Assembly: GCF_008124865.1 (NCBI RefSeq)
Contig: NZ_VNHY01000002.1
Coordinates: 124,001 to 188,000, forward strand
Length of the DNA: 64,000 bases
DNA from: Fodinibius salinus
GTDB lineage: Bacteria; Bacteroidota; Rhodothermia; Balneolales; Balneolaceae
Direction: 5' to 3'
Shown: positions 9,107 through 20,759 of the stretch, piece after piece
How the letters are laid out: each line of letters starts with the position of its first letter
Numbering within the stretch: position 1 is the first letter of the stretch
Program-made: the position numbers and the translations under genes
The notes under the pieces: model-generated
The model's input: the letters and a program-made list of their open reading frames with translations, nothing else
Told to the model about the DNA's origin: nothing
Database searches by the model: none

Positions 9107-10339
9107 TTAAAATCGATAGGCTACAAATGCTTTGAAACTAAAGCGTTTTCTGGTAAAATTTGGATATTCAGAAGAATCATAGCCCGCATTGCCTCCTATA
9201 AACAACCTTTCAGACAAAGGGTACTGCCCGTCTATGCCAAGCGACCAAGAATCCAGCGTTTGTATATCTTGGGGAAACTGAATGTCAGTAGTGGTAGAGG
9301 CAGATCCAAACCCACCATTGAGACTTAAATAACTATTAGCCGATCCAAAGTATCTGCGAACAATCAAACTCAATGATTTTGAACTTCTGGCTTGTGATGG
9401 TACCAAATAAGTGCGCAATGTAAATAAATAGCTTCCCGAATATTTAGTTAGCGAAGCAGTATAGATATCTGTTTGTGAAGTGTTGAAATCGAGATAACGC
9501 ATCCCGATCTCCAGCTCGAATGACGACGGCAGAGATTTATATAAAGAGATCCCAAATCGATATTCAGGATAAATTGAGGATTTTGAATATCCCCCGCTTA
9601 TATAAGCATATAATCCTTCTGTAATCGAAGGATAAGCATCCAGATTAAATTGCGTACCATCAGAACCAAATCGCTGAGCATACTGAATGCGCCCAATAAT
9701 GGAGCCATACGGTGTCTGACGAGTTAACCCAAACTCCGAAAATTTCCAAGGATCAAAAATATCGGTGAAATAGTCATACCGGTATGATACATTAACTTTG
9801 TATTTCATCTGTTTTAGCTGCACCTCTTGCAATCCCTCACGTGCTTCTCTATTAGCAGAAGAGGATCGTAAAATCTTTTTATATACCTCTTCGGACTCCT
9901 CATATTTTTCCAATTTGTAAAATATAGAAGCTTTCTGAAGCAGAAGTTCGTTATCTTCGGGATAGTAGTTGATCGCGCGATTCACAATTTGCATTGCCTT
10001 TCGCTGATTACCAGACCAGTTTTCGACATCTATTATCGCTAGTAACGCCTCTCGGTTATCGGGATCATTCTCTAACACATATGTCAATTCTTCTCTTGCC
10101 TTTTGATACTTTCCTTCCCAGCTAAACAGGCGACCAACAAAAATTCGTATACCATGATAGTTTGGACTTCGGTCTAATGCACTATAAGCATATCCACGGG
10201 CCTTTTTATAATCCCCCTCATCAAAAGCTGCTATACGAGCCTTTTCATAAAGTTGATCTACTGATAATTGCTTTTGTGCAACCGATGTGGCATGGGTAAT
10301 GAGTAAAAAAGCTCCCAAAATTGTAAGAACTCGTTTCAT
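9107..10339 (-). CDS. YaiO-family outer-membrane beta-barrel protein with N-terminal TPRs
   Basis: I start it at the ATG at 10339-10337 because it gives a clean signal peptide (MKRVLTILGAFLLITHATSVA). The longer reading needs a GTG at 10366. The mature protein has three to four TPR-like helix pairs (about residues 25-165: YEKARIAAFDEGDYKKARGY, NPxxHG-type turns, EKYEESEEVYKKIL). About 240 residues of alternating aromatic/polar strands follow (YRYDYFTDIFDPWKFSEFGL, IIGRIQYAQRFGSDGTQF, FGISLYKSLPSSFELEIGMRYLDF), ending in aromatic FVAYRF. That pattern fits the YaiO outer-membrane family, which in E. coli sits beside a glycosyltransferase (yaiP). It follows the sulfatase-TPR gene by 44 bp from this start, so they form an operon. 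I infer a role in export or anchoring of a polysaccharide. Confidence 0.82.
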   Translation of the reverse strand: MKRVLTILGAFLLITHATSVAQKQLSVDQLYEKARIAAFDEGDYKKARGYAYSALDRSPNYHGIRIFVGRLFSWEGKYQKAREELTYVLENDPDNREALLAIIDVENWSGNQRKAMQIVNRAINYYPEDNELLLQKASIFYKLEKYEESEEVYKKILRSSSANREAREGLQEVQLKQMKYKVNVSYRYDYFTDIFDPWKFSEFGLTRQTPYGSIIGRIQYAQRFGSDGTQFNLDAYPSITEGLYAYISGGYSKSSIYPEYRFGISLYKSLPSSFELEIGMRYLDFNTSQTDIYTASLTKYSGSYLFTLRTYLVPSQARSSKSLSLIVRRYFGSANSYLSLNGGFGSASTTTDIQFPQDIQTLDSWSLGIDGQYPLSERLFIGGNAGYDSSEYPNFTRKRFSFKAFVAYRF

Positions 10340-10383
10340 ATTATCAATATTAAGAATATTAACCACTTATAAAATAACTTTAA

Positions 10384-12843
10384 TTATTTATAGAGACCGA
10401 TATTTTCGAATTCTTTTAGGCTGCTATCGGCGGGAGAAATCTGTTTTTTAAAACGATTATATACCTCTTTCGCTTCGGAATACCTTTTCAATCCTGCTAA
10501 AACCTTAATTTTACGTTTCAGAAATTGTTTACGCTGGGGATGATATTTAAGTCCTTGGTTTACTACTTCTAAAGCATCCTCATAGTTACCTGCCCAATAT
10601 TCATTATCAAAATATGCACTGTAAGTATCATAATAAGTTGAGTCTGATTTCAGAACCTCCTTAAAGTGCTTACGAGCTTCGCTATAGTTTTCTTCCCACG
10701 CATGCGTTCGGCCAATAAGAATGCGCACGTCGTGATATCCTGGATGGTTCATTAATATACGCTTTGCAATTGCACGAGCCTTCCCATAATTACCAGTAAA
10801 TGCCATTTGACGTGCCTCCTGATACTGCTGATCTATTGACAGTCCTTGTTTATCTAACTGTGCAAATAGGGTATCGTACTCTTCTAAAAAAGTATATTCG
10901 GGACCAACAGCTTTAGAGTCACCCGGGTACAACCTATTACTCTCTATAACAAATTGATTGATGGATTTAAAACGGCTTAACTTTTCCTCTAACCTTGCTT
11001 TCACCTTTTTATTCTCCTTGTGAGTTAATGTTAGACCTTCGCCCAATTTGTATAATTGGTCGTCATATAAATAGTATTCCCCGTCAAGGTAATCAGAAAT
11101 ACGGTTCTTATTCCTCATCAACGGTACCGACTGTCGGCTTCTAAATTTTCTGCTAGTATCCATTATACCACCTATCCAATGCACTGATTGCGGCATCTCC
11201 AACTTGGTTTGACTTCTTAACAATGCTGTAAAGGTTGGTACTATTTCTGCATGGGTATTTACAGATTTAAAATGGCCTGTTCTTTTCAGCTTAGGCGAAT
11301 AAATCATAATGGGTACATGATATCTCGAAATAACTGATGGTTGTGGTATTGGAACAAGCCAGTGATCACCTGTGATTATAAATATTGTATTCTCAAACTG
11401 ATCTCGCTGACGATATGACTCCATAAATTGTTTAATCGACTGATCAGCAAATAGAAGTGTCGTAAGTTCAGCACGATATTGCCTATAGCCCTTTTTTCTT
11501 TCTTTAGAAACGTCCAGCTTATTAAGCCTGTCTCTAAATTGCGCTTCATATTTACCAGCATTCGGCACTGTAAATGGAGAGTGACTTTGTAACGTATGGT
11601 ATATTTCAAGGCGCGGAAAAGCTTTGGCAGTATCCAAAAGCGTAGAAGATAAACTAAACATTGTTTTGTCATCTACGCCCCAGTAATTGGAACTTTTAGT
11701 TGATTCAGGGAATAATTTCTCCAATTTCTGCTTATTAAGCACATAATCTATTCCCTGATAATCCAAAAAGAAATCAAGTTTATCGAAATAAGTATCATAA
11801 CCACTGTAGAATGCCGTATAATAACCGCGCTGGTCGAGTAAACTAATGAGTGATTGATGATTTGGATAACTGGGTCCTAATTCCATGAATCCATGTTTGC
11901 CGAAAGGCAGTGAGCCCAACACTGAAGGTACCAGTCCAAAGGTGCGGCCAGACAGGCTAAGGCCATTTTCCCAATATAAACTCTCTTTGGAAAGCGAATC
12001 CAAGTAAGGAGTAAAACCGGCCCATTGGCCATTAGGACCCATAAATTCTCCACCCATACTCTCGACAAATAAAAAAACTATGTTAGGGGGCGTATTAAAC
12101 TTGTTGAAAAAAGGGCCCAGTACATCCTTTTGCTCAGCTTCTCGCAACAAAGGATATTCATTCTTTTCAAAAGCAGTTACTTTATCTCCAAACAGCCCTA
12201 TCGCTGAAAAGCTACGTGTTGCAAAGTAAGAAAGTTTGTTCTCCTGTTTTTCTTTTTGAATGACATTTACATCCCTATCTGCTTCAAAAGCCACACTAAC
12301 TATATAGATCACTAATATAGCAACAACTCCAGCCCCAACACCTTTGGCCTTAACTTTTGCAAAAACCTCTAAAGATTGGATCGTGCGCACAAGCCAATAA
12401 AGCATTAAATAACTCATTACAAGAAATAACACACTCCAAACTGTAATATAGTTTGTAGCCAGTACAGTATTGAAGATCTCAGTAATTGAATAACCCCAAA
12501 AGTCAGCCCCCAATGGCCTTAAGGTGATCGTAAAATATGATATCAAAAAAATATAAATCATTGTCACAATCACTGTCAGATGAGCCGTAATATTTTGAAC
12601 AGCCTCTTGCCGGTAGATTAATTGCAAAGGTATTGCCAACAATAAAAACAAGACCGTTAACACAACACAGATCTGTAAATCATGGACGAGTGCCATAAGC
12701 ACATAATCTAGTCCTATCGTATTAAAACCATGATAGACAGACATACCAACCCACTCATAGCACCTGGCAAAAAGGAAAGCTATGAAAAACATACTAAATT
12801 GCGCTAGGTAAAACTTTTTTTTGGGGACGAGCTTGGTATCCAT
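10384..12843 (-). CDS. LTA-synthase-like alkaline-phosphatase-fold transferase fused to C-terminal TPRs
   Basis: I use the ATG at 12843-12841; a TTG two codons earlier is possible. The 819-residue protein has five N-terminal membrane helices (residues about 10-190), then an extracytoplasmic sulfatase/LtaS-fold domain (about 250-575). Likely metal and catalytic residues are Glu261 (FVESMGGE), nucleophile Thr301 (SGRTFG), His421 (QSHSPF) and Asp493/His494 (TGDHW). Members move phosphoglycerol or phosphoethanolamine onto glycans or lipids. The C-terminal 140 residues are TPRs (SIDQQYQEARQMAFTGNYGK, then AWEENYSEARKHFKEVL) that resemble the N-terminal TPRs of the YaiO-like protein encoded next. 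This fusion is unusual. Its neighbours suggest that it decorates an exported polysaccharide. The exact donor is unknown. Confidence 0.85.
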   Translation of the reverse strand: MDTKLVPKKKFYLAQFSMFFIAFLFARCYEWVGMSVYHGFNTIGLDYVLMALVHDLQICVVLTVLFLLLAIPLQLIYRQEAVQNITAHLTVIVTMIYIFLISYFTITLRPLGADFWGYSITEIFNTVLATNYITVWSVLFLVMSYLMLYWLVRTIQSLEVFAKVKAKGVGAGVVAILVIYIVSVAFEADRDVNVIQKEKQENKLSYFATRSFSAIGLFGDKVTAFEKNEYPLLREAEQKDVLGPFFNKFNTPPNIVFLFVESMGGEFMGPNGQWAGFTPYLDSLSKESLYWENGLSLSGRTFGLVPSVLGSLPFGKHGFMELGPSYPNHQSLISLLDQRGYYTAFYSGYDTYFDKLDFFLDYQGIDYVLNKQKLEKLFPESTKSSNYWGVDDKTMFSLSSTLLDTAKAFPRLEIYHTLQSHSPFTVPNAGKYEAQFRDRLNKLDVSKERKKGYRQYRAELTTLLFADQSIKQFMESYRQRDQFENTIFIITGDHWLVPIPQPSVISRYHVPIMIYSPKLKRTGHFKSVNTHAEIVPTFTALLRSQTKLEMPQSVHWIGGIMDTSRKFRSRQSVPLMRNKNRISDYLDGEYYLYDDQLYKLGEGLTLTHKENKKVKARLEEKLSRFKSINQFVIESNRLYPGDSKAVGPEYTFLEEYDTLFAQLDKQGLSIDQQYQEARQMAFTGNYGKARAIAKRILMNHPGYHDVRILIGRTHAWEENYSEARKHFKEVLKSDSTYYDTYSAYFDNEYWAGNYEDALEVVNQGLKYHPQRKQFLKRKIKVLAGLKRYSEAKEVYNRFKKQISPADSSLKEFENIGLYK

Positions 12844-13054
12844 GAGCAATTGTAGATTTATATATTTCCTGCTTTAAAATAAAATAGCTCTTCTCTTCCA
12901 AAAAATATATCCCTCCCTATCTTCGAATAACATTGTATTTAATTATTTAAGTAGAAAAAATATTTTAATGTAAATAAATTTGTTACTTTATTGTATAGAC
13001 ATAATAAAATAAGCTGCCAATATATAATAATATCTAATCTCAAATACAGGCAGT
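12844..13054. promoter_or_regulatory. Divergent promoter region between the two arms of the glycan locus
   Basis: A 211-bp, very AT-rich gap between the minus-strand sulfatase-TPR gene and the plus-strand response-regulator gene, so both promoters must lie here. On the plus strand TAAATTTG at 12975-12982 matches the TAnnTTTG -7 consensus and would start transcription near 12989, but I see no TTTG at the right distance upstream. No long palindrome is visible. Confidence 0.4.
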
Positions 13055-13519
13055 ATGAATACACTGGACCCTCTTTATCCTTCTATTGGAATCTACTATA
13101 GTCCCGAAAATAGTTCCGGTGCTTCTGCAAACTCACCATCCCCCTCTAACGAAATTTTGATCGTTGATGATGACGAGTTGACCAGACAGTTATTTAACAG
13201 GCTTTTAGATCGAGAATTTGATAAAAAAATAGTACTCTTTAGTAATGGTCTTAAAGCATTAGAGTATGCGAAAGAAAATATACCTTGCTTGATGATTCTG
13301 GATTTAATGCTCCCCGGGATGAGTGGCTATGAAGTGCTCCAAAACGTCCGGAAAAACGCTATCTTTCAAAATACAAAGGTCGTACTGGTATCTGCCAAAT
13401 CAAGATCTGAGGATATTAAGCGTGGTTTTGATCTTTCGGCAGATGAATATATTACCAAACCCTTGCAACCGAAAGAATTCATAGCCCGCATCCGAAAGCT
13501 GATAACAAAAGCGGCCTAG
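13055..13519 (+). CDS. Single-domain response regulator (REC only)
   Basis: A 154-residue protein consisting of a variable 33-residue N-terminal tail and one receiver domain. The acidic pocket is Asp38-Asp40 (IVDDDE), the phospho-acceptor is Asp83 (ILDLMLPGMSG), and the conserved Ser113 (VSAK) and Lys125 (YITKP) are present, so it should be phosphorylatable. There is no DNA-binding or enzymatic output domain, so it must act by protein contact. It is the first gene of a three-gene plus-strand unit, 16 bp before the HEAT-repeat gene. No histidine kinase gene is nearby. It may switch the HEAT protein or the glycosyltransferase, but that is inference. Confidence 0.9.
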   Translation: MNTLDPLYPSIGIYYSPENSSGASANSPSPSNEILIVDDDELTRQLFNRLLDREFDKKIVLFSNGLKALEYAKENIPCLMILDLMLPGMSGYEVLQNVRKNAIFQNTKVVLVSAKSRSEDIKRGFDLSADEYITKPLQPKEFIARIRKLITKAA

Positions 13520-13535
13520 CTGCTTATATAAGGAT

Positions 13536-14732
13536 ATGTTTGATTTTACAATTGCATTCAGAACCCTTATAGCCCTAGTAAGTTTTCTTTTTATTCTTTT
13601 CTTTTTTCTATTAGGATATACATTCTGGACACGTCTAACGAAAAATTATTGGGAAAGGTATGAAAAAAAGTTCCGCAGTTACTTTTTTTCACTCATTTTA
13701 GATTACGCTGAACAGACCTCTCCCAAACAAGACGCTGACGATATTATTAAGCAATTAAGCAGACGTACAAAAGATTATGCTTTCTTTCTTAGATTGCTCA
13801 ATAAACTTGTCAATATATTAGATGGCGAAGATCGAGAACGACTAAATGATTTTATAGAGCACCCTGCTTTTTTGTCTTTATTCCAAGAGAGACTTTTTGA
13901 CTATTCTACTAATTCGAAATTACTTGCTTGCAGATACTTTCGATTTGCCGAAGATATTGATCAGCGTACTCTGGCTAAACTAATTTCTATGAGTAGAACA
14001 TCGAATATAAAACTGGCATATGCAGCAACAAAAGCCATTATTACTTCTGGAAAACCAACTATTCAAAAAACTACATTGCTCCGATTTTTTAAACGTAGTG
14101 ACTTTTCCGAACTCATGGTTCCCGAACTTCTTTATTTACTTGACCCTGGTAATACTGCTTATCGTCCCCAAATAGGCCGTGTACTTAAGAGCCTTCTAAT
14201 TGAGAATATTGGTCAGACTGCCAAAATCGTTATTATCCGCTACTTAGGATGCCAACGGTTTTATAAACAAAGCAATTTTTTATTTCAGTATTTAAAACGC
14301 CTGCAATATAACAACGCAAAAGCTCCACTTATCCAGGCATTAATTATTGCACTAGGACAATTACACAATATAAATGCGTCCTCTGTAATTAGAGCATATA
14401 CTCAAAAAGGCATGCCCACAGACATACGGCTGGCGGGTGTAAAAACACTAAGTACTCTAGGAGGAGAAAAAAATCTAATCTTTTTAGTAAACAATCTACA
14501 GAATGCAGAATTTGCTGTACGGAAGGCTATCATCGAAGAGTTCATACTCAATGACAAAAAACGTCTTGAGTATCTTTTGCAATATGTAATATCTAACTTG
14601 GATTTGATCAGAAAGATTAAAGATCAAAAACAACCTCCAAAACATATCTATCCATTTTTAGATAAAATCGATAGTATCGCAGCAGGAATTCAGATAACTC
14701 TCAGCCACCGTTTGATGAATACCAATGCTTAA
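13536..14732 (+). CDS. Membrane-anchored HEAT-repeat protein
   Basis: The 398-residue protein has one strong N-terminal membrane helix (residues about 7-30, TLIALVSFLFILFFFLLGYTF) followed by a soluble helical solenoid. Repeated pairs such as YFRFAEDIDQRTLAKLISMSR, IKLAYAATKAIITSG and IRLAGVKTLSTLGGEKNLIFLV read as HEAT repeats (roughly residues 120-340), a protein-protein interaction scaffold. No enzymatic motif is visible. The N-terminus probably tethers it to the inner membrane with the solenoid in the cytosol. The gene lies between the response-regulator gene and the GT2 gene and overlaps the latter by 8 bp, which argues for a tight functional link, probably as an adaptor for the synthase. 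Confidence 0.82.
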   Translation: MFDFTIAFRTLIALVSFLFILFFFLLGYTFWTRLTKNYWERYEKKFRSYFFSLILDYAEQTSPKQDADDIIKQLSRRTKDYAFFLRLLNKLVNILDGEDRERLNDFIEHPAFLSLFQERLFDYSTNSKLLACRYFRFAEDIDQRTLAKLISMSRTSNIKLAYAATKAIITSGKPTIQKTTLLRFFKRSDFSELMVPELLYLLDPGNTAYRPQIGRVLKSLLIENIGQTAKIVIIRYLGCQRFYKQSNFLFQYLKRLQYNNAKAPLIQALIIALGQLHNINASSVIRAYTQKGMPTDIRLAGVKTLSTLGGEKNLIFLVNNLQNAEFAVRKAIIEEFILNDKKRLEYLLQYVISNLDLIRKIKDQKQPPKHIYPFLDKIDSIAAGIQITLSHRLMNTNA

Positions 14733-16128
14733 CGAATTTTATTTATTTAGTATTATTGAAAAACTTATTGTCAGCTATTTTATGACAATAAATTCCGTGT
14801 ATCTACTTCTCACTGTAGGTGCACTCATCTATGTTCGGAAACAACTATTACAAAGCGATGTTGTAGAGGCAGACGCACTTTTTAAGACTGAGCTTTTTAA
14901 ATCAATTAGTATCCTTGTGCCTGCCTACAATGAGGCCGAAAACATAGTAGAATCGATTGAATCATTACTCAAGCTCGAATACCCGGAATATCATATCATT
15001 GTCATAAATGACGGCAGCAGCGACGACACCTTACAGCGACTTATTGACCATTTTGATTTAGTTGAAACAGAGATTTATTACAACAAACAGATAGGCCACC
15101 AGCCGATTCAAAAAATCTATCAAAGCCCCGACATACCAATTCTAACAGTAATTGATAAAAAGAATGGCGGAAAGGCCGATGCACTTAATGCTGGCATTGA
15201 CCTTGCAGAAACTGACCTTATCTGTTCGATTGATGCCGATTCCATTTTGGAACAGAATGTCCTAAAAAAACTTATCCAAACCTTTATTGAACATAAAAAC
15301 ACAGTGGCGGCAGGTGGTGTTGTTCGAGTGATTAACGGCTGTAAAATAGAGAGTCGTGAAATTAAAGAGATTCACACGCCCAAAAATTTTTGGGCTCGTC
15401 TGCAATCGGTAGAATATATCCGCGCATTCCTATTTGGTCGGGTAGGCTGGGATTATTTTAAAAGTTTACTCATAGTATCTGGTGCTTTTGGAATCTTTGA
15501 CCGCAAAGCTGTTATTAAGGTGGGCGGGTATTTGACCGATACGGTCGGAGAAGATATAGAACTCATTATTCGCCTTCACAGTTATCACCTTCGCAATAAC
15601 ACGGATTATCAAATACGATTTCTTCCTGAACCTATTTGCTGGACTGAAGTACCTACGGACTATACAAGCTTGAAAAACCAACGTAACCGTTGGCATCGTG
15701 GACTTGCCGACTCACTGTGGCGGCACAGGTATATGCTCTTCGATAAAACCTATAAGCATATAGGATTATTCGTAATGCCCTTTTTCTTATTTTTTGAACT
15801 GCTAGGACCTGTCATACAGTTTTTTAGCTATATCTATTTAGCCGTCAGCTTATTTTTACCGTCTCTTTTTAACCTTCCATTTATACTACTGTTTCTGGCA
15901 GTTTCCATTTTATATGGAATGGTCATATCACTAATTTCAGTACTGGCTGAAGAGATAGCATTTAAAAGCTATAGTAGTTTTAAAGATATTTTTATTCTAA
16001 GCCTGTTTTCCTTCGTAGAAAATATCGGTTATCGACAGATCCATGGTTTTTGGCAACTGAAAGGACTTATCGATTTTTTTAGAGGAAAGAAAAACTGGGG
16101 CGAAATAAGCCGTACAGGGTTCCAATAG
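14725..16128 (+). CDS. Processive family-2 glycosyltransferase (BcsA/PgaC-like polysaccharide synthase)
   Basis: A 467-residue inner-membrane GT2 enzyme. One N-terminal helix region (residues 8-38) is followed by the GT-A domain with the full set of synthase motifs: Asp96 in NDGSSDDT, the DAD metal motif at 170-172, GED at 275-277 and QRNRW at 319-323. The QxxRW motif marks processive synthases that polymerise and translocate glycans. Four or so C-terminal membrane segments follow (about 345-430). There is no PilZ domain, so c-di-GMP control is not encoded here. The start overlaps the HEAT gene by 8 bp. With the YaiO barrel and sulfatase-TPR genes opposite, I infer exopolysaccharide synthesis. 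The sugar is unknown. Confidence 0.88.
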   Translation: MLNEFYLFSIIEKLIVSYFMTINSVYLLLTVGALIYVRKQLLQSDVVEADALFKTELFKSISILVPAYNEAENIVESIESLLKLEYPEYHIIVINDGSSDDTLQRLIDHFDLVETEIYYNKQIGHQPIQKIYQSPDIPILTVIDKKNGGKADALNAGIDLAETDLICSIDADSILEQNVLKKLIQTFIEHKNTVAAGGVVRVINGCKIESREIKEIHTPKNFWARLQSVEYIRAFLFGRVGWDYFKSLLIVSGAFGIFDRKAVIKVGGYLTDTVGEDIELIIRLHSYHLRNNTDYQIRFLPEPICWTEVPTDYTSLKNQRNRWHRGLADSLWRHRYMLFDKTYKHIGLFVMPFFLFFELLGPVIQFFSYIYLAVSLFLPSLFNLPFILLFLAVSILYGMVISLISVLAEEIAFKSYSSFKDIFILSLFSFVENIGYRQIHGFWQLKGLIDFFRGKKNWGEISRTGFQ

Positions 16129-16149
16129 TTCTCTATTGTATAGAGAACT
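16127..16149 (+). terminator. Hairpin at the end of the glycosyltransferase operon
   Basis: A perfect 10-bp inverted repeat (AGTTCTCTAT / ATAGAGAACT) with a 3-nt loop starts inside the GT2 stop codon. It is well placed to end the three-gene transcript or protect its 3' end. The downstream sequence ATTACCC lacks a real U-run, so intrinsic termination is uncertain. Confidence 0.45.
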
Positions 16150-18887: not shown

Positions 18888-19820
18888 CTAAACTTCTATC
18901 GTGGGCAGTGCCGCTTCAATTTCTGTTCGACGAGTCTCATGCCAGGGCGTTAGCTCCAGTTTTTGAGCCTGATCCTCAGACGGATCGGAATTAACAAAAT
19001 AACCAGGACCGTGTGTAGCCATCTCAAATAGCACCCCGCCCGGCGTGCGATAATAGACAGACTTAAAAAAGTGCCGGTCAATAATTTCTGTCGGCTGCAA
19101 CCCAAATCGCAATACCTCATGACGCAATTCCTTCAGATCTTCAGCATCTTCTGTCTGAAAGGCTACATGATGTACAATGCCAGCCCCACTTTGTCCTTGG
19201 CTAAATGGCACTTCCTCAATAATGACAGAGTGGCCAAGCTCACTCTCAGTTTTGTAGAGGGTGGCATTCTCTTCCGAAGCAACCTTTTTAAATCCTAAGA
19301 TAGAAGTCAATACTTGTTCAGTATGATCCATCTCATGCAGCCGAAGAGTCGTACTCCAAAATCCCTGTATTTGATATTTATCCGGTACGGGAGACTTATT
19401 CCAACTTTTCAGATCAATTTTCTGGCCGTCAAATACCAAGTGCAACTGAAGCCCGTCCGGATCTTTAAATGAAAGATACTTCTTGCCAAATCGAATAAGA
19501 GGACCGCTGTATGGAATATTCTGTTCATCCAATCGCTCTTGCCAATAATCCAGCGAGCTTTCCGGTACGGCCAGAGAGACAGCTGTAGCTTCACCAGATC
19601 CGGAATCACCTTGCCGTGCCCGCGGCCAAGGGAAAAAAGTGAGACTAGATCCCGGACTTCCTTCAGAATTAGCATAAAAAAGATGGTACTTCGTTGGGTC
19701 ATCTTGATTGACTGTTTTCTTTACCATACGCATCCCCAGCTTTTTGACATAGAAATCGTAATTCTCTTGGGGGTCGCCGGCAATGACTGAAATATGATGC
19801 AGTCCGCGATATTTACTCAT
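18888..19820 (-). CDS. MhqO-like ring-cleaving dioxygenase, VOC fold (second copy)
   Basis: A 310-residue protein built from two glyoxalase/vicinal-oxygen-chelate halves. The first opens with GLHHISVIAGDPQENYDFYV and has FFPWPRARQG. The second carries VHHVAFQTED and GGVLFEMATHGPG, where His and Glu are expected to bind the metal. The size and duplicated VOC layout match the ring-cleaving dioxygenase (MhqO/LinE-like) family that opens hydroquinones or catechols. It lies 12 bp downstream of a paralogous gene of the same family, with similar motifs throughout, so the pair arose by tandem duplication and is co-transcribed. The aromatic substrate is not predictable. Confidence 0.88.
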   Translation of the reverse strand: MSKYRGLHHISVIAGDPQENYDFYVKKLGMRMVKKTVNQDDPTKYHLFYANSEGSPGSSLTFFPWPRARQGDSGSGEATAVSLAVPESSLDYWQERLDEQNIPYSGPLIRFGKKYLSFKDPDGLQLHLVFDGQKIDLKSWNKSPVPDKYQIQGFWSTTLRLHEMDHTEQVLTSILGFKKVASEENATLYKTESELGHSVIIEEVPFSQGQSGAGIVHHVAFQTEDAEDLKELRHEVLRFGLQPTEIIDRHFFKSVYYRTPGGVLFEMATHGPGYFVNSDPSEDQAQKLELTPWHETRRTEIEAALPTIEV

Positions 19821-19832
19821 ATACTATACTAA

Positions 19833-20759
19833 CTAATTGTTTAGTTCAGGTAAATCCGCCTCTAACTTGTGGCGGTAGGGTTCAAGATTATCGGGAAGCG
19901 TTAACGAACTTCCAAGGTCTTCCAAGTTTTCATCAACTGTAAAACCAGGAGGGTCAGTAGCCACTTCAAAAAGTATACCCCCCGGCTCATGAAAATATAC
20001 TGACTTAAAATAAGTTCGATCTTTCACTTCCGTCAGATGATAACCTTTGTGGTACAATTGTTCACATATAGCTTGTTGCTCTTGTTCATCTTCAGATCGA
20101 AAAGCAATGTGATGCACTGTACCTCTCCCAGCCCGGCCATTGGGTTGAAACTGGTCAATGACTTCAATCACAGAACCTATTTCAGAACCAGAAGTATAAT
20201 AATACCTATTATCTAACTGGTCGGTTAACTCAAATCCCAACTCGTATTCCAGCAATCTCCCTGTGCCCTCATAATTTTTCTCTGCCAGGCTAACCCCATG
20301 GATACCCCTAATGGCGTGCTTCTGTGGGACTACACCTTCACCCCACCCTTCTGTACCATCAACGCCGGGCGAAAACACTAGTTCAACGTAGAGTCCATCA
20401 GGATCTTGAAAACCTATTACTTCTTTGCCAAAACGTTCGAAAGGATCTTCAAAACTGACATCCTGATCCTCAAGATGTTCAATCCAAAATTGTTTGGATG
20501 TAGTGGGAACAGCGAATGCAACAGACACTACCTGCCCGCGGTCGGGCTTTCCTTTTTGCATATGCGGCCAGGTAAAAAATGTGATAATGCTTCCGGGATC
20601 TCCCGACTCATTGCCATAATATAGGTGGTAGGACGACGGGTCATCAAAATTGACTGTTTTCTTTACCAAGCGAAGTCCCATTACTTGGGTATAAAATTCA
20701 TAATTCCGTTGAGGATCACCGGCTATTGCGGTAATATGATGTATTCCTTTTTCTGCCAT
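19833..20759 (-). CDS. MhqO-like ring-cleaving dioxygenase, VOC fold (first copy)
   Basis: A 308-residue paralogue of the next gene, with the same two VOC halves: GIHHITAIAGDPQRNYEFYT near the N-terminus, FFTWPHMQKG, then VHHIAFRSEDEQEQQ and GGILFEVATDPPGF, containing the predicted metal ligands. It is the promoter-proximal gene of the mhq-like block (dioxygenase, dioxygenase, hydrolase). A 30-bp palindrome 31 bp upstream of its ATG and a minus-strand TAnnTTTG box upstream of that indicate a repressor-controlled promoter. In Bacillus the equivalent genes respond to quinone stress through MhqR (MarR family). No such regulator gene is adjacent here. Confidence 0.88.
   Translation of the reverse strand: MAEKGIHHITAIAGDPQRNYEFYTQVMGLRLVKKTVNFDDPSSYHLYYGNESGDPGSIITFFTWPHMQKGKPDRGQVVSVAFAVPTTSKQFWIEHLEDQDVSFEDPFERFGKEVIGFQDPDGLYVELVFSPGVDGTEGWGEGVVPQKHAIRGIHGVSLAEKNYEGTGRLLEYELGFELTDQLDNRYYYTSGSEIGSVIEVIDQFQPNGRAGRGTVHHIAFRSEDEQEQQAICEQLYHKGYHLTEVKDRTYFKSVYFHEPGGILFEVATDPPGFTVDENLEDLGSSLTLPDNLEPYRHKLEADLPELNN

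Follow-up and report, generated by a model that had tools for sequence, protein, structure and literature searches.

We analyzed a five-gene locus of Fodinibius salinus that probably encodes a machine for making a surface glycan and that lies within a window of 64,000 nucleotides (G000:C2:124001-188000; G000 is this genome, 2.86 Mb in 9 contigs and 98.5% complete). On the minus strand, one arm encodes a protein with TPRs and a YaiO-type outer-membrane beta-barrel (9107..10366; Pfam YaiO, NCBIfam TIGR04390, TPR_19) and an LtaS/OpgB-type transferase of the alkaline phosphatase superfamily with C-terminal TPRs (10384..12849; Pfam Sulfatase). On the plus strand, the other arm encodes a single-domain response regulator (REC; 13055..13519; Pfam Response_reg, E=2.5e-25), a membrane-anchored HEAT-repeat alpha-solenoid (13536..14732; recognized from its AlphaFold model, Foldseek and its position 5' of the synthase gene), and a membrane-embedded, processive-type glycan synthase of family GT2 (14725..16128; recognized from Pfam, an AlphaFold model and motifs), whose reading frame overlaps that of HEAT by 8 nt. 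The original prediction, made from the letters of this DNA, had described five genes in two divergent operons; all five open reading frames (ORFs) were recovered in this arrangement, and Pfam and NCBIfam confirmed the YaiO-TPR, sulfatase-fold-TPR, REC and GT2 assignments. The region between the arms (12844..13054), assumed to be a common promoter region, measures the predicted 211 bp if the LtaS-like gene starts at the ATG at 12843, which is probably the case, but 205 bp if it starts at the TTG at 12849. The YaiO gene probably starts at the ATG at 10339, which gives the protein a signal peptide. Within the genus, the block TetR-(gene)-YaiO-LtaS/REC-HEAT-GT2-(kinase)-PyrB is kept gene for gene (L029, L030 and L031; L034 ends at a contig edge).

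The GT2 protein (467 aa) matches PF00535 (E=3.3e-26), and all its Pfam matches are GT2-type. The predicted motifs are intact, namely, NDGS (residues 95-98), DAD (170-172), GED (275-277) and QRNRW (319-323), and 67 relatives share D96, G97, S98, D170, D172, E276, D277, Q319, R320, R322 and W323 without exception. The protein thus carries the D, DxD, GED and QxxRW motifs of processive membrane-embedded GT2 enzymes, together with their N-terminal transmembrane (TM) segment and C-terminal TM bundle. Its AlphaFold model (mean pLDDT 91.0) is closest, among solved structures, to the Chlorella virus hyaluronan synthase (7sp7, E=1.4e-16, TM 0.65), followed by chitin and cellulose synthases. The fold and motifs point to a processive hyaluronan/chitin-synthase-like enzyme that would polymerize a glycan, although the identity to hyaluronan and chitin synthases is 15-18% and, unlike them, the window GT2 has HEAT and REC partner genes. 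What the polymer might be is suggested by distant relatives, which are a weak guide to the window: the haloarchaeal Halosolutus copy adjoins glmS and a nucleotidyltransferase gene, and the Legionella copy adjoins genes for a nucleotide-sugar dehydrogenase and epimerases, both of which suggest a hexosamine and/or uronic-acid type. In three other loci (L041, L047 and L050), the GT2 ORFs are 689-862 aa long, with a long C-terminal extension beyond the TM region; a terminal SPOR domain was detected in L047.

The REC protein retains an intact acidic pocket residue D39, phospho-acceptor D83, S113 and K135, as expected of a receiver domain; D39, D83 and K135 are kept in 22/22 relatives, and position 113 is Ser or Thr. 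An anchored HEAT-repeat protein had been predicted next to it, and the structural model bears this out even though the window protein scores 20.0 bits against the Pfam HEAT_2 (PF13646) cut-off of 27.7, which its homologues in relatives exceed (38.4-42.2 bits). The AlphaFold model (mean pLDDT 91.8) is an all-helical solenoid of helical hairpins that follows one long N-terminal helix, and its top Foldseek matches are HEAT/ARM-type solenoids (importin/ARM/HEAT folds). A single N-terminal TM helix (residues 8-26) is followed by basic residues, because of which the solenoid is predicted to be cytoplasmic. The HEAT and GT2 parts of one natural fusion (L191) are separated by an additional TM helix, so that both domains would stay on the cytoplasmic side. 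The HEAT gene of Fodinibius sediminis (L035, 8235-9436; L176) consists of two ORFs (130 and 279 aa; internal stops) beside intact REC and GT2 genes, and may be a pseudogene or reflect a sequencing error.

How widely do these genes travel together? We scanned named genomes with a GT2 alignment, which yielded 80 loci, and added seven plasmid loci, for a total of 87. HEAT lies directly 5' of GT2 (once fused to it) in all 84 testable loci, from ~20 phyla including haloarchaea; in the remaining 3, the contig starts within GT2, so the position of HEAT is not assessable. The triad of REC, membrane-anchored HEAT solenoid and GT2 occurs, among others, in the Balneolota, Bacteroidota, Ignavibacteriota, Gemmatimonadota, Acidobacteriota, Actinomycetota, Bacillota, Mycoplasmatota, Pseudomonadota, Bdellovibrionota, Myxococcota, Nitrospirota, Nitrospinota, Elusimicrobiota, Cloacimonadota, Deinococcota and Archaea, with REC in the neighborhood at 72 of the 87 loci. 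A HEAT profile iterated on this set gave 86 matches among 4,791 ORFs (1.2 Mb), 85 of which adjoin GT2 and one of which lies elsewhere, more than chance would give. A frozen copy of the profile, applied to 40 new Bacteroidota loci picked by GT2 alone, found HEAT in 40/40; in L260, one of these, the GT2 ORF extends far upstream, so that the automatic adjacency rule missed the pair. In the host phylum, 70 of 296 sampled genomes carry the module. The conserved core is therefore the triad.

The pairing with HEAT follows one GT2 lineage, since even GT2s merely 28-33% identical to that of the window (on Legionella, Bacteroides and Planococcus plasmids) adjoin HEAT, whereas a Sulfitobacter GT2 (28% identical) lies beside a polysaccharide deacetylase gene without HEAT. 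In a tree with PgaC, IcaA, the Sulfitobacter GT2 and YaiP for comparison, the HEAT-associated GT2s form one side (89/99 support), which counts as supporting only, given long outgroup branches and a bootstrap that had yet to converge. The Bacteroides finegoldii plasmid (L225, 2644-5296) carries its HEAT-GT2 pair near a chondroitinase-family lyase gene, so the module occurs in Bacteroides as well. RefSeq labels the parts generically (HEAT repeat domain-containing protein, glycosyltransferase), and we found no description of the triad in the open-access literature, although an earlier one in the subscription literature is possible. The Stutzerimonas 'sea' locus (PMC12125118), considered as a match, could not be tied to the REC-HEAT-GT2 operon.

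YaiO scores 198.2 bits against PF19413 (cut-off 23.9; E=1.4e-58) and 172.4 bits against TIGR04390 (cut-off 32), which places it within the family; we found no characterized function for this family in the open-access literature, where the listed papers that name YaiO deal mainly with E. coli detection and genomics. The LtaS-like enzyme scores 119.5 bits against PF00884 Sulfatase (cut-off 25; E=2.4e-34) and combines ~5 TM helices with a periplasmic sulfatase-fold domain and TPRs. Its E263, H423, D495, H496 and W390 are invariant, and position 303 is Thr in 10 of 11 sequences, including that of the window, and Ser in L104; the catalytic Glu, Thr/Ser and Asp-His of the sulfatase fold are thus all present. 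The TPRs of the two window proteins are 34% identical to each other. We propose that the LtaS-like enzyme decorates the polymer and that YaiO exports it, with both the chemistry and the pore function deduced from family and context.

YaiO was present in 35 of 60 diderm loci but in none of the 23 from monoderms or archaea (Fisher p=1.8e-7, uncorrected for phylogeny; phyla were grouped by their customary cell-envelope type). YaiO is hence an add-on of diderms, and the LtaS-like arm is an add-on of Bacteroidota and their relatives. Three monoderm loci (L142, 9436-11592; L157, 4218-6377; L181, 9438-11663) instead encode, beside the triad, a 718-741-aa partner that matches no Pfam family and that may replace the periplasmic and outer-membrane parts.

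Do the two arms belong to one system? The original prediction staked itself beforehand on their co-occurrence in relatives, and this co-occurrence is conserved. In seven Bacteroidota loci (L237, L238, L239, L251, L256, L257 and L264), REC-HEAT-GT2-LtaS-YaiO all run in one direction, and on an Emticicia plasmid, all five genes lie on one strand. Furthermore, six loci from four families encode GT2 and the LtaS-like domain as a single polypeptide (1,135-1,273 aa), which ties the arms together, and LtaS occurs without YaiO in just 1 of 27 LtaS-bearing loci (three Bacteroidota/Balneolota sets). Conserved co-occurrence, co-directional operons and fusions thus support, at the level of gene organization, the view that the arms co-function. 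The prediction of a five-gene unit needs revision: complete sets do recur, but the invariant core is REC-HEAT-GT2 only, with YaiO and the LtaS-like arm added to it, and this core is not specific to Bacteroidota. Two further arrangements were seen. L256 (G171:C19:142000-161000) has tandem HEAT-GT2-YaiO operons in one genome, the first with LtaS, which may make two polymers. L139 (6738-10154) has a single open frame with GT2 (419-878) and a YaiO barrel (918-1138); such an inner-/outer-membrane fusion makes little topological sense and is possibly an assembly error.

Most of the known exopolysaccharide systems of the synthase-dependent type are activated by cyclic di-GMP (c-di-GMP). The original prediction had pointed to missing PilZ, BcsB-like and deacetylase parts and to control through REC and HEAT instead of c-di-GMP. 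We found no GGDEF and no PilZ domain in this genome, while the same search was positive in 8 (GGDEF) and 5 (PilZ) of 14 control genomes; nor was there a BcsB-like gene, or a PgaB-like deacetylase among the annotated flanking genes. Because both GGDEF and PilZ are missing, canonical c-di-GMP control is unlikely in this genome. This independence does not extend to the whole family, since several relatives have receivers with GGDEF: in Halolactibacillus, a Cloacimonadota metagenome-assembled genome and the same-class genome G085, the protein encoded directly 5' of HEAT is REC-GGDEF-REC (L162, 5202-6851; L164, 4521-6938; L094, 5167-6954; with an Hpt domain in L162 and L164), and this partner may double as a cyclase that makes c-di-GMP locally.

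Histidine kinases often flank the operon, with GAF-kinases, REC-kinases and PAS hybrid kinases adjoining it outside the genus. Between GT2 and PyrB, same-genus loci have a gene that, where typed (L029), encodes a histidine kinase; the window has no gene there, only a 156-bp gap. The kinase orthologue of this genome lies 220 kb from the operon (G000:C2:359003-360208), and its best matches in G002, G003 and G005 are exactly their operon kinases. It sits in a cluster of three kinase-like ORFs (L092, 4531-10209; G000:C2:354530-360208).

In its parts, the locus resembles several characterized systems. Like the E. coli Bcs cellulose system, in which BcsA-BcsB-BcsC work with the phosphoethanolamine transferase BcsG (PMC11470070, PMC11379886), it has a GT2 synthase, a periplasmic alkaline-phosphatase-superfamily transferase of the kind recruited to the synthase (BcsG-BcsA) and a TPR outer-membrane porin candidate (BcsC); unlike Bcs, it has no PilZ, c-di-GMP or BcsB-like gene, it has REC-HEAT in place of c-di-GMP control, and in some relatives, the transferase is fused to the synthase. 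Identity as a BcsA cellulose synthase was rejected (CelA equivalog_domain, 48 vs. 699.1 bits; no PilZ in protein or genome). The poly-N-acetylglucosamine (PNAG) systems PgaABCD and IcaADBC share a TPR-barrel exporter, and PgaC/IcaA is the top NCBIfam match of the GT2 (1.2e-43), but PgaC/IcaA are 26-28% identical to it and fall outside the HEAT-associated group. PNAG synthase identity was likewise rejected (TIGR03937, 149.6 vs. 422.3 bits; no PgaB-type deacetylase or PgaD among the annotated flanking genes).

In E. coli, too, a GT2 gene lies close to one for a YaiO barrel protein (the yaiO-yaiX-yaiP-yaiS locus), as the original prediction noted, but yaiX separates yaiO from yaiP, YaiP is 23% identical to the window GT2, and REC, HEAT and LtaS are absent. 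The two YaiO proteins show no significant pairwise similarity (E=0.14) and are kin by profile only. The E. coli NfrBA-YbcH exopolysaccharide system is alike in its GT2 synthase, its TPR-barrel outer-membrane partner and, if our model holds, its cytoplasmic allosteric control, but there c-di-GMP acts through an MshEN domain of NfrB itself (PMC8669469), whereas the window locus has a receiver domain and a HEAT protein encoded apart from the synthase; an NfrB-type synthase was discarded as an identity, the 467-aa GT2 having no C-terminal MshEN and GT2-type Pfam matches only. With LtaS and OpgB, the window transferase shares the fold, the catalytic Thr/Ser, Glu and Asp-His and the HSPF histidine, but it is fused to TPRs, tied to a glycan synthase and below every equivalog cut-off, which excludes LtaS proper (NF053595, 33.4 vs. 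970 bits). The locus would work like the Bcs, Pga and Nfr synthase systems, yet it falls outside each of them when measured by the PgaC and CelA cut-offs, PilZ, deacetylase or MshEN.

We consider it likely that these genes make up a synthase-dependent machine for a surface glycan, with REC and HEAT, rather than a c-di-GMP receptor, as its regulatory core. In the mechanism that we propose, a histidine kinase, here likely the one at G000:C2:359003-360208, would phosphorylate REC at D83. Phospho-REC would dock on the membrane-anchored, cytoplasmic HEAT solenoid, which would contact the GT2 catalytic domain and license or release synthesis; direct contact is favored because REC has no output domain. 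GT2 would then polymerize a nucleotide sugar, probably of the hexosamine and/or uronic-acid type, and, like hyaluronan, chitin and cellulose synthases, would extrude the chain by way of its own TM channel. Once the chain reaches the periplasm, the LtaS-like enzyme would attach to it a head group taken from a phospholipid (phosphoglycerol or phosphoethanolamine), with TPRs that match those of YaiO keeping the enzyme in position; its intact active site and the GT2-LtaS fusions suggest this step, which parallels BcsG acting on BcsA (PMC11470070). Finally, TPR-YaiO would take the chain and pass it across the outer membrane, as its restriction to diderms suggests.

More broadly, and only tentatively, these genes may represent a widespread class of bacterial and archaeal polysaccharide synthases gated by a phosphorelay (phospho-REC acting via HEAT on GT2), a counterpart of c-di-GMP/PilZ control that, in Bacteroidota, would give a phosphoglycerol- or phosphoethanolamine-decorated, teichoic-acid-like glycan exported by YaiO. 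A synthase module found in ~20 phyla including archaea would then be controlled by what looks like another switch, and this in a host without GGDEF or PilZ. If true, the YaiO family gains a function, a phospho-decorated surface glycan is predicted in Bacteroidota, and the finding bears on the control of glycan synthesis in bacteria that lack c-di-GMP.

Several observations weigh against this interpretation. What was observed is the genes themselves, their domains and residues, their conservation, the fusions and the absence of GGDEF and PilZ; enzymatic activity, polymer, decoration, export, phospho-gating and REC-HEAT-GT2 contact are all read from sequence. No REC was seen in 15 of the 87 loci, several of which end at contig edges, so REC is not a strict requirement. 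LtaS is missing from roughly half of the Bacteroidota loci, and YaiO from some, within the stretch seen. GGDEF-bearing receivers occur in several phyla, and control may therefore differ between lineages. The YaiO barrel domain (~230 residues) is smaller than the BcsC and PgaA porin domains and may be too small for a polymer-wide pore.

Could REC and HEAT do something other than gate the synthase? The most serious competitor, which we regard as somewhat unlikely, keeps the same machine but makes the pair a localization or assembly scaffold (e.g., for polar placement) or a co-traveling branch of transcriptional signaling. HEAT solenoids are scaffolds, the top structural matches are importin/ARM/HEAT folds, and some loci have no REC; yet HEAT is anchored in the membrane beside GT2 and once fused to it, and a REC without an output domain makes protein contact likelier than transcription. 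An improbable alternative is a system like that of osmoregulated periplasmic glucans, in which GT2 would make a periplasmic oligosaccharide, an OpgB-like enzyme would add phosphoglycerol, and YaiO would be structural or porin-like instead of an exporter. The weak match of the LtaS-like protein to phosphoglycerol transferase I/OpgB models (3e-07), the small barrel and the diderm loci without a nearby YaiO speak for it. On the other hand, YaiO tracks the outer membrane, its TPRs are akin to those of the LtaS-like enzyme, and it matches PNAG and cellulose exporters of the TPR-barrel kind. The GT2 model looks like synthases whose long products are extruded, and the triad is found in monoderms and archaea too, where periplasmic glucans do not occur.

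We find it quite improbable that c-di-GMP control is the general rule for the triad and that a different cyclic dinucleotide or a cryptic cyclase serves this genome: the REC-GGDEF-REC genes just 5' of HEAT would fit, but this 98.5% complete genome has neither GGDEF nor PilZ, and many relatives carry a single REC only. That the arms are chance neighbors, two unrelated and merely divergent operons, would agree with their non-divergent order in many relatives and the patchy LtaS but is refuted by the GT2-LtaS fusions, the co-directional five-gene operons in other families and the complete set on the Emticicia plasmid.

Two minor features of the window may be added. The short direct and inverted repeats within the locus look like chance. 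Elsewhere (18888-20759), adjacent ORFs of 310 and 308 aa have similar N-termini, and the pair resembles a tandem duplication of a glyoxalase/ring-cleaving-dioxygenase-type gene.

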